From Candidatus Sumerlaeota bacterium (GTDB lineage Bacteria > Sumerlaeota > Sumerlaeia > JABWBI01): a DNA stretch of 33,121 nucleotides. Numbering within the stretch: the stretch's first letter is position 1; the number at the start of each line of letters is the position of its first letter. Where the stretch lies: positions 1 to 33,121 of the forward strand of contig JAFGKF010000362.1 in the NCBI GenBank assembly GCA_016928695.1, given 5' to 3'. The notes under the pieces are model-generated. The model was given only the letters and a program-made list of their open reading frames with translations. It had not been told where the DNA came from and did no database searches. Positions 1 to 23,365 of this stretch are shown here, in pieces. The position numbers were made by a program, and so were the translations under genes.

Positions 1-255
1 AGCGCCGGCGCCCTCGCCGGCATTGGCAGTGTCGGCCTCAAAGACCGACACGAAGAGGCGCTGCCTGAAGGCAGCCGGGTCTCCGGATGTTTGGAGTCCT
101 GCGGCTTGCCGCAGTTTCTAGAAACATGAGCAAGCTCATGGACTCCACATGTTTGGAGTGCGGTGAGGGCGCCAGTGCTCCATCATTCGATTCGGCCTGC
201 TTCAGCGGGTGCCTCTTGGCCGCTGGCTTCAGCCAGTGGCCTGAAAGACCGACGC
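1..255. repeat. Composite intergenic element of nested inverted and direct repeats
   Basis: There is no convincing gene here. Hairpins are visible at 4-21 (7-bp stem), 29-51 (GTGTCGG/CCGACAC) and 60-75 (GCTGCC, loop TGAA, GGCAGC). The core at 90-149 is bracketed by TTTGGAGTCC (90-99) and GGACTCC (140-146) and holds three abutting palindromes: TGCGGCTTGCCGCA (100-113), GTTTCTAGAAAC (114-125) and ATGAGCAAGCTCAT (126-139). Arms at 53-74 and 197-217 are inverted copies of AAGAGGC-N5-CTGAAG-CAG with one extra base in the left arm. An 18-base direct repeat, GGCCTCAAAGACCGACAC at 34-51, recurs at 238-255 with two mismatches. A further stem with a TTCA loop lies at about 217-241. The core is shared with 20455-20632. 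The left end may continue beyond the window. Confidence 0.75.
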
Positions 256-3995: not shown

Positions 3996-4511
3996 TCATG
4001 GGAATCGGTGATTGCGAAGTGCATTCCAGCTTTGGTCCGCGCCACCGGAGATGATGAAATCATCCCTTCTGACCAGATCTGCGAGGATCATCTCGCATCT
4101 TTTCGCCGAGATGACCCTGTTCAACACGAGATCCCTCAGGATCATGGCACAGTTTCCGACGATCAATCCCCGAGCCTGGATCGCCTTCGCCAGGGCTCTG
4201 TCAGCGGTGACGACACAGAGTCTGCAATGCACCGCGGTCGCATAGACAATGCGGTCCACATCGGAGATCGACTTCGAGAGACGCACCCCGCTCAGGATCT
4301 GGGCGAGCTCGGTGGCACCTGGCGATTTGATGCGCTGGCAATGATGACAGATTCTCTCAGCAGTCTCAGGTCGCAGGTGGTCAGAGATGAGGTTCTCTTC
4401 GATGACACTCATGACTGGGACCACAGCGATCAGGTCGGGGTGGTCCAGGAGAATTTTGTCAACGGTGATCAGGGAGCACGTGTCAAACAGAGCGCTGTCC
4501 CACCAGCTCAA
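3996..4511 (-). CDS. PIN-like domain protein, partner of the XRE/ImmA gene (putative toxin)
   Basis: A 171-residue protein with the layout of a PIN-fold nuclease. Acidic residues sit at the expected places: D10 in LFDTCSLI after strand 1, E38/E39 in SVIEEN, D84/D86 in ISDVDRIVYATA and D104 in VVTADRALA. PIN toxins cleave RNA using Mg ions held by such residues. The match is by pattern, not by close recognition of a named subfamily. Its ATG overlaps the stop of the XRE/ImmA gene by four bases (4508-4511), so the two are translationally coupled. Base composition is near 55% GC in a sampled line, against over 70% in mutL, suggesting acquisition by transfer. A non-nucleolytic PIN-like sensor is an alternative. 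Confidence 0.7.
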   Translation of the reverse strand: MSWWDSALFDTCSLITVDKILLDHPDLIAVVPVMSVIEENLISDHLRPETAERICHHCQRIKSPGATELAQILSGVRLSKSISDVDRIVYATAVHCRLCVVTADRALAKAIQARGLIVGNCAMILRDLVLNRVISAKRCEMILADLVRRDDFIISGGADQSWNALRNHRFP

Positions 4512-19707: not shown

Positions 19708-20355
19708 TCAGGGCTGACTGGAGTCGCGGAGATTCCGCGAATCCTGAATCGCCTGCATGTACCGGCGGGAATCACCGGCGGGTGCTGATGGGGCACTCTC
19801 GCTGGAGGGTGGAGGCCTGCGAGCCGCAGCCTCGGCCGCACGCTGCGCCTCCTCCGCCTCACGGCGGATCCACTCGGTCTCGGCGAGATCCTGAATCAGC
19901 TCCCGACCCCGCTGGGCGTTCTCCGCCTCCCAGCGCGCCTGTTCGATCTCGTGGACAACCCTCGCCATGGTCGAGCGCAGTCTCTGGGCCCTCGCGATGT
20001 CCTCGGGATCGGCGCCGGGAGCGCCCTCCACCCGCTCGGTGACCTCGTTCACCACCTCGAGGAGGCGAGGCGCATCGTTCTGAAACTGCGTGCGAGCGAG
20101 ATGGATGGAGATCTCGGCGAGCGCGAGCTGGAGGGCAACGCTCTCCTCCGCGCCGTTGGCCGCCTGGAGCAGAAGGCGAAAGCCCCCGGGGAAGTTGTCC
20201 TCGGCCAGCTCCTGCCGGGCCTGGAGGACAAGCGACCGTGTCTCCTCGGGCAGGGCGGTCAGCTCCTCATTGGAGAGGTTGATCTCCACCGGCGCCGCAG
20301 TGGCGTGCGACACGGCGAAGAGCAGGGCGAGGGCGATGAGGGCGCGGGGAATCAT
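19708..20355 (-). CDS. Exported coiled-coil protein of unknown function
   Basis: A 215-residue protein I cannot assign. It begins with a signal peptide (MIPRALIALALLFAVSHATA, AxA site before residue 21). Residues 25-130 are helical and alanine/glutamate/arginine-rich. Residues about 125-175 (ARVVHEIEQARWEAENAQRG to EEAQRAAEAAARR) form a strong coiled coil. The tail (PPPSSESAPSAPAGDSRRYM) is disordered. It is probably periplasmic. It lies between the convergent NsrR-like gene and the repeat element at 20455-20632, interrupting the usual proB-proA pair. No neighbour suggests a job. Confidence 0.75.
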   Translation of the reverse strand: MIPRALIALALLFAVSHATAAPVEINLSNEELTALPEETRSLVLQARQELAEDNFPGGFRLLLQAANGAEESVALQLALAEISIHLARTQFQNDAPRLLEVVNEVTERVEGAPGADPEDIARAQRLRSTMARVVHEIEQARWEAENAQRGRELIQDLAETEWIRREAEEAQRAAEAAARRPPPSSESAPSAPAGDSRRYMQAIQDSRNLRDSSQP

Positions 20356-20454: not shown

Positions 20455-20632
20455 GGAGTGCGGCGGCGCCCCATTTCTGATTTGGAGTCCTGCGGCTTGC
20501 CGCAGACGGTCTGAGATGGAGTCCACGGACTTGCCCGTGAGTCTGGGGCAAGCCCCAGGACTCCAAACATGAGATTGCGCGAGCAAGCTCGCGCAGTCCA
20601 GAGCACAGGCAAGCCTGTTCACTCCATATCAG
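20455..20632. repeat. Modular palindromic repeat element with CTTG/CAAG-centred hairpins
   Basis: This gap after proB holds a chain of small palindromes: TGCGGCTTGCCGCA (20491-20504), CACGG-ACTTGC-CCGTG (20524-20539), TGGGGCAAGCCCCA (20544-20557), GCGCGAGCAAGCTCGCGC (20577-20594) and ACAGGCAAGCCTGT (20605-20618). Each has CTTG or CAAG at its centre. They are separated by GGAGTCC or its inverse: TTTGGAGTCC (20481-20490), GGAGTCC (20518-20524), GGACTCCAAA (20558-20567), AGTCCA (20595-20600) and ACTCCA (20620-20625). A second module, GGAGTGCGG then GGCGCC (20455-20470), also occurs at 155-173. The first outer unit and first hairpin match 90-113 exactly. It resembles a REP/BIME-type element. Confidence 0.85.

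Positions 20633-20659: not shown

Positions 20660-23365
<2,706 letters not shown>

Follow-up and report, generated by a model that had tools for sequence, protein, structure and literature searches.

Chained CTTG-centred hairpins in a Candidatus Sumerlaeota genome, probably REP-type elements with an unusual guide tag and a RAYT

What kind of element is the chain of small palindromes at positions 20455-20632 of a 33,121-nucleotide stretch of Candidatus Sumerlaeota DNA (contig JAFGKF010000362.1 of assembly GCA_016928695.1; this whole stretch is called the window)? A preliminary description made from the letters alone had reported five chained palindromes with a CTTG or CAAG centre, and all five (A to E) were confirmed at that place in the sequence. 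We conclude that they very probably belong to a RAYT/REP (REPtron) system, as REP-type elements whose guide tag is unusual and whose hairpins are hetero-paired. The cluster and its neighbours are laid out as follows.

19708-20355, minus strand: gene downstream of the cluster, 215 aa, no Pfam match
20455-20473, plus strand: decayed GGGAGTGCGGCGGCGCCCC, the probable remnant of a TNTGGAGT-GCGGCGG unit
20481-20505, plus strand: unit A, tag TTTGGAGT (20481-20488), then C, then hairpin CTGCGG(CTTG)CCGCAG (20490-20505)
20515-20539, plus strand: unit B, tag GATGGAGT, then C, then hairpin CACGGA(CTTG)CCCGTG (20524-20539)
20518-20564, strand not applicable: head-to-head, REPIN-like pair of B and C, 47 bp, 3-nt spacer, unlike stems, one of the 27 tight pairs sampled
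20543-20567, minus strand: unit C, tag TTTGGAGT in reverse (20560-20567), C, hairpin CTGGGG(CTTG)CCCCAG (20543-20558)
20577-20602, minus strand: unit D, tag TCTGGACT in reverse (20595-20602) and GCGCGAG(CTTG)CTCGCGC (20577-20594)
20605-20628, minus strand: unit E, tag TATGGAGT in reverse (20621-20628), GA, hairpin ACAGG(CTTG)CCTGT (20605-20618)
20660-21778, minus strand: ProB-like glutamate 5-kinase (Pfam AA_kinase and PUA), the cluster lying just 3' of the gene

The cluster thus lies in the 304 bp that separate proB from a downstream gene on the same strand. Unit B, whose hairpin has one A/C mismatch, is the left half of the pair and unit C the right half, with complementary outer arms (GGAGTCC/GGACTCC). 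Unit A is an extra unit beside this pair, and its stem, CTGCGG, is the genome's commonest, being present in 39 of 101 sampled units. The motif GGAGTCC is found in units A, B and C only; D has GGACT and E has GGAGTGA, and these two belong to the same tag family as a sister subfamily to the GGAGTCC units.

The cluster is one site among many. In the whole draft genome (4.17 Mb, 393 contigs) the pattern GGAGTCCN2-8GCTTGC has 90 matches (48 forward, 42 reverse) and the reversed control pattern has none. The genome-wide count that had been proposed earlier thus gave many copies, and with their differing stems these 90 units bear out the suggestion of a family spread through the genome, as opposed to duplicates of a single sequence. 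Many contigs of the draft end in or near these repeats (C4, C14, C44, C91, C132, C136, C213, C278, C328, C372 and C377). As the repeats fragment the assembly, the copy number is a lower bound. Statistics other than pattern counts come from about 0.44 Mb (about 441 kb) taken around the matches, a sample biased by its enrichment for repeats; there, stems of at least 5 bp surround CTTG and CAAG in about 6% of cases, versus 0.25% for the average tetramer, that is, about 25 times as often.

Each unit opens with TNTGGAGT or TNTGGACT as its tag; 0-2 nt further on comes a hairpin of 6-7 bp centred on G(CTTG)C. We sampled 101 units headed by GGAGTC, from the window and from the stretches fetched around matches. 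The loop is CTTG in 90 of them and the 6-bp stem is perfect in 93, with ten different perfect stems around CTTG, most commonly CTGCGG, CACGGG, CTGGGG, CATGGG and CATGAG. The constant tag is TNTGGAGT, because a T at position -3 and a T at position -1 before GGAGT are each present in 98 of the 101 units (T at -1 and -3 in 45 of 46 Chloroflexota copies). Within the 0.44-Mb sample, a hairpin begins within 0-1 nt after 120 of 162 TNTGGAGT sites and after 10 of 31 TNTGGACT sites, and follows most other TNTGG words in about 5% of cases or less. The hairpin foot therefore carries an unpaired 5' tag, TNTGGA[G/C]T. What had been taken for a constant spacer, or punctuation, is the 5' tag of each unit: GGAGTCC is TNTGGAGT plus the first base or bases of the hairpin, and the palindrome of which it is a part is thus the one 3' of it. 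At six loci (L048, L055, L061, L075, L081, L082) we also observed CTGCGG units in which a longer palindrome, AAGTCGCCGACGCGCC...GGCGACGGCGCGCC, takes the place of the loop, giving the impression that one hairpin element was inserted into another or grew out of it.

The stems vary and nevertheless remain self-complementary. Across 35 distinct hairpins, drawn from Chloroflexota as well as from this genome, pairing is kept in 98.1% of cells. Changes on both sides were counted in 69 cells; shuffles gave 20.4 and slid controls 4-15. Five of the six base pairs have been changed on both sides, and nothing is essentially fixed but the closing G-C pair and the CTTG loop. The earlier proposal that the centre is held constant while the stems vary is thus substantiated by compensation within the stems. 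Such features could also be read at the level of RNA, as G(CUUG)C is an unusually stable RNA tetraloop. The hairpins would then mainly be RNA elements (3'-end mRNA stabilisers, terminators or protein-binding sites), selected gene by gene, with the tetraloop recognised. The fixed loop and the covariation agree with this reading, as does the strong predicted RNA fold of the window cluster; an Rfam scan of the window at gathering cut-offs gave no match to a described RNA family. However, the tag TNTGGAST, which is unpaired, is no less constant than the loop, and both orientations and symmetric pairs occur.

The position of the units relative to genes bears on the same alternative. With genes called by a simple codon-model gene caller, 94 of the 101 units lie outside called genes, as befits a short, mostly intergenic palindrome with 90 copies. 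The gaps that hold units are tandem in 21 cases, convergent in 9 and divergent in 2, versus 36, 8 and 23 among the other gaps of at least 150 bp, so that divergent gaps are avoided (2 of 32 versus 23 of 67, P=0.003). This preference for sites 3' of genes would suit RNA elements, but REPs have also been reported to avoid divergent gaps (PMC3733652). Among 147 related genomes, one of the same family included, the pattern is no commoner than chance would give; the member of the same family is devoid of units, and its genes after proB differ from those found here. That relatives of the same class do without the pattern, that RAYT genes carry the same hairpins and that the dispersal would be left unexplained all make a primary role in RNA very unlikely in our judgement.

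A main arrangement of the REP-type units is the inverted pair. Among the 101 sampled units there are 27 tight head-to-head pairs of 47-64 bp, with a spacer of mostly 3 or 10 nt, and in all 27 the two hairpins have unlike stems (identical stems: 0 versus 4.7 expected, P about 0.005, the copies not being independent). Stems of one class (CTGCGG, CTGGGG, CAGCGG and one variant) face those of another (CACGGG, CATGGG, CATGAG, CGCAGG and one variant) in 27 of 27 pairs, the two classes having been named after the pairs had been seen. A second pair is found in the window, followed by a further module.

90-149, strand not applicable: second pair, TTTGGAGTC-CTGCGG(CTTG)CCGCAG-TTTCTAGAAA-CATGAG(CAAG)CTCATG-GACTCCACA, its CTGCGG and CATGAG hairpins spanning 93-146
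153-184, plus strand: TTTGGAGTGCGGTGAGGGCGCCAGTGCTCCA, a tagged palindromic module, both ends of which have a GGAG/CTCC foot

A recurrence of the cluster's parts at 90-173 had been described before. The pair is real (93-146), but the GGAGTGCGG-GGCGCC module is scarce as such, with 2 copies in the sample of about 0.44 Mb, and many GGAGTGCGG units are ordinary hairpins carrying the same tag as the cluster units.

The two halves of a pair can also form one long hairpin, and energy minimisation prefers it. Stem positions 2-4, however, pair within their own hairpin in 81 of 81 cases in the 27 tight pairs and across the halves in only 10 of 81, and the conserved structure is therefore the small hairpin. 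The single long hairpin (a symmetric REPIN fold) was accordingly rejected as the conserved structure, since the covariation follows the local hairpins. The same figures weigh against the idea that the pairs are MITEs, deriving from another transposon family that has GGAGTCC as its terminal inverted repeats, and that the RAYT association is incidental. The outer arms GGAGTCC/GGACTCC are indeed inverted repeats and a pair can be folded as one long hairpin, as this idea would have it, but single units with the same tag exist, and a RAYT clade that extends over two phyla has hairpins of this design in its flanks. We hold a MITE origin to be highly improbable.

Which protein could move these elements? 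A family search found two Y1 transposase genes in the genome, one of which, P0001, is a REP-associated tyrosine transposase (RAYT). It reaches 92.9 bits against NCBIfam NF047646 (cut-off 80), resembles the E. coli TnpA-REP protein 4er8 (E=6e-7 alone, 2e-10 with alignment) and has the motif YVHQNP. The gene runs to the end of contig C328 and is completed by C174, which starts with the same 87 bases; its reading frame is intact. Its 5' flank bears TCTGGACT-GCGCGAG(CTTG)CTCGCGC (tag GGACT), the same tag and hairpin as unit D, and its 3' flank bears the inverted GCGCGAG(CTTG)CTCGCGC hairpin with TCTGGAGT (GGAGT form). This hairpin has 15 exact copies in the genome. The search for a RAYT that the preliminary description had suggested thus led to a single gene with the unit D hairpin on both sides. 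As these flanks are D-type hairpins and not GGAGTCC pairs, the link with the commonest subfamily is drawn from the shared tag, the shared loop and the Anaerolineales case described below.

The second Y1 gene (IS200-like, on C208, protein P0006) is disfavoured as the mover of these elements because a different repeat family lies beside it. This second, unrelated palindrome family, of GGCCACTGGCTTCAGCCAGTGGCC- and AAGAGGCGC-type hairpins, is also seen in the window at 1-80 and 185-255 and has about 16 copies in the genome. One copy, at G000:C208:82-105 (L069), lies about 65 bp upstream of the P0006 gene, whose protein has a Y---Q--HH motif, and the two are perhaps a second hairpin/transposase system.

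The same association of tagged pairs with a RAYT is observed elsewhere. In an 84,980-species collection, which may leave out this genome itself, the whole pair pattern was found at 11 loci, all of them in Chloroflexota MAGs, with the same layout and other stems, for example GGAGTC-CGACAG(CTTG)CTGTCG-AAATTT-CAGGAG(CAAG)CTCCTG-GACTCC. Each of the nine pair-bearing genomes has 3-17 pattern matches; no pair was found in viral contigs. Five of the nine have a RAYT near the query family, the gene lying beside tagged hairpins or pairs (the Anaerolineales RAYTs L192, L193/L242, L198/L276, L204/L277 and L279); P0002, the one Anaerolineales homologue compared, is 51% identical to P0001. Three of the nine drafts, possibly incomplete ones, yielded no RAYT of this clade at E<1e-15, and a fourth has a distant RAYT relative only, which speaks against the association. 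In four Anaerolineales genomes (L192, L193, L198, L204) the RAYT adjoins the same gene, whose products are homologous and at least 150 aa long (...AAGYNVRIN...); the RAYT site thus appears to be old and vertically kept. In two Chloroflexota genomes, pairs are seen at apparently the same point of an alcohol-dehydrogenase-like gene (L119, about 4048-4094; L120, about 932-981), the reading frame seemingly being kept.

A tree of 44 RAYTs has a supported group of 19 (99/97) that unites the RAYT of this genome with those of same-class relatives and Chloroflexota. By strict criteria, a GGA[G/C/T]T-tagged hairpin lies within 350 bp at 16 of the 19 clade loci, and two more (L276, L277) have visible tagged hairpins of weaker or variant form. 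When 5-mers at hairpin feet were counted free of assumptions, TGGAG, GGAGT, TGGAC and TTGGA came on top in this group, versus CGTAG and GTAGT for the other RAYTs. With perfect hairpins required, GGA[G/C/T]T feet are found at 9 of 19 clade loci, versus 0.1 on average in shuffled flanks, and GT[AG]G stands at the hairpin foot at 1 of 19 clade loci versus 10 of 25 other RAYTs. Strictly, the tag does not mark a single clade, since GGANT tags also occur on RAYTs outside the group (L186, L255-L258, L261). Among these, a separate Chloroflexota RAYT group (L256, L257, L258, L261) has GGA[G/C/T]T-CCCGAA(CTTG)TTCGGG flanks, with the same tag and loop on a different branch.

We infer that mobilisation by this RAYT is the likeliest mechanism behind the repeats. 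The replicating unit would most likely be the head-to-head pair (REPIN) of two unlike hairpins, which may fold when the region is single-stranded, for instance on the lagging-strand template. The RAYT, predicted here to be an HUH/Y1 single-strand nuclease, would read tag and hairpin, and its predicted cutting and rejoining of the DNA would place copies at new, mostly intergenic sites, perhaps to this day. Repeated events of this sort could build mosaics such as that at 20455-20632. Only for this last step does another route compete: old REP clusters may have exchanged copies through homologous recombination or gene conversion, transposition no longer being active. One 47-bp element is found in five places, and these identical copies have some neighbouring repeat sequence in common, so that the larger mosaics may stem from copying by recombination; mosaic clusters and tandem partial copies (L063, L086) point the same way. 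Pairs that stand alone in unrelated intergenic places, and the intact RAYT reading frame, argue against it, and we consider it rather unlikely, though less so than the two alternatives above.

One might speculate further that these elements represent a third guide-tag class, in which one RAYT clade (Chloroflexota and this phylum) has changed its GTAG-reading residues and reads TNTGGANT, the mobile unit having to consist of unlike hairpins as left and right ends, and the stems drifting freely while self-complementary; we put this forward tentatively, at slightly less than even chances. The E. coli protein contacts GTAG through W94, Q95, E100, H101 and R104 (PMC6006769), which align with W, F, D, T and T in the RAYT here. 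Judged from this alignment, the altered residues are consistent with a changed tag and do not prove it. If the tag is truly read by this clade, the GTAG and TGGANT sister clades would be a natural pair for studying site choice, and the varying stems and never-matching pairs would show which part of a REPIN is read by sequence and which by shape. Searching for the signature TNTGGANT at hairpin feet would also annotate unexplained palindromes in poorly studied phyla.

How do these elements compare with known systems? The preliminary description knew of no named family with this grammar, but the REP/REPIN kind matches in its tag, hairpin, head-to-head pairs and RAYT, which make up the published REPIN/REPtron plan of tag, hairpin, inverted pair and nearby RAYT (PMC3116915, PMC2817692, PMC8266576). 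The REPINs GI-GIII of Pseudomonas fluorescens SBW25, with group 3 RAYTs, share with our elements a GCTTGC centre with differing stems (GGGGGCTTGCCCCC, GGGAGCTTGCTCCC), a tag before the hairpin, inverted pairs as the replicating unit and a RAYT adjoining copies, whereas their tag is GTGG/GTAG in place of TNTGGA[G/C]T (PMC3116915, PMC2817692); the REPs of their GI and GII doublets are spaced by 71 and 110 bp, versus pairs of 47-64 bp, always of unlike hairpins, here. The E. coli REPtron (TnpA-REP, and BIMEs with Y and Z REPs) likewise has a homologous HUH/Y1 protein and inverted pairs of unlike REPs, but a GTAG tag and bulged stems (PMC8266576). The GTAG and CGTC super-families of palindromes resemble ours in being tagged, in forming HH dimers, heterodimers included, and in their intergenic, non-divergent sites, but neither tag is found at these hairpins (PMC3733652). 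In place of the canonical GT[A/G]G they have GGAG or GGAC within TNTGGAST, and they differ from the CGTC-tagged palindromes, which have no transposase association. Since published REPs without GTAG exist, the tag limits membership to the wider kind, outside the GTAG super-family. Both TnpAY1 class 3 and the 'atypical' subclass 2.6 have HUH-Y1 genes flanked by many-copy non-GTAG hairpins, yet the CnGA foot and Y----Q motif that define class 3 are replaced here by TNTGGAST and YVHQNP (PMC6006769); the YIH[QN]NP of subclass 2.6 (Bacteroidetes) is nearer to YVHQNP than class 3 is (PMC6006769).

Rickettsia palindromic elements are palindromic repeats able to sit inside coding genes; among ours, only the two Chloroflexota copies L119 and L120 look in-frame. 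A literature search, short on subscription journals and figures, found no paper naming the tag TNTGGA[G/C]T, nor does the text of the RepRanger paper mention it (PMC12306157); for the literal GGAGTCC and GGAGTGCGG, the matches listed were unrelated papers only. What would be new in this already known kind of system is thus the tag, together with the rule that the hairpins paired around one RAYT clade are always unlike; we found no description of either.
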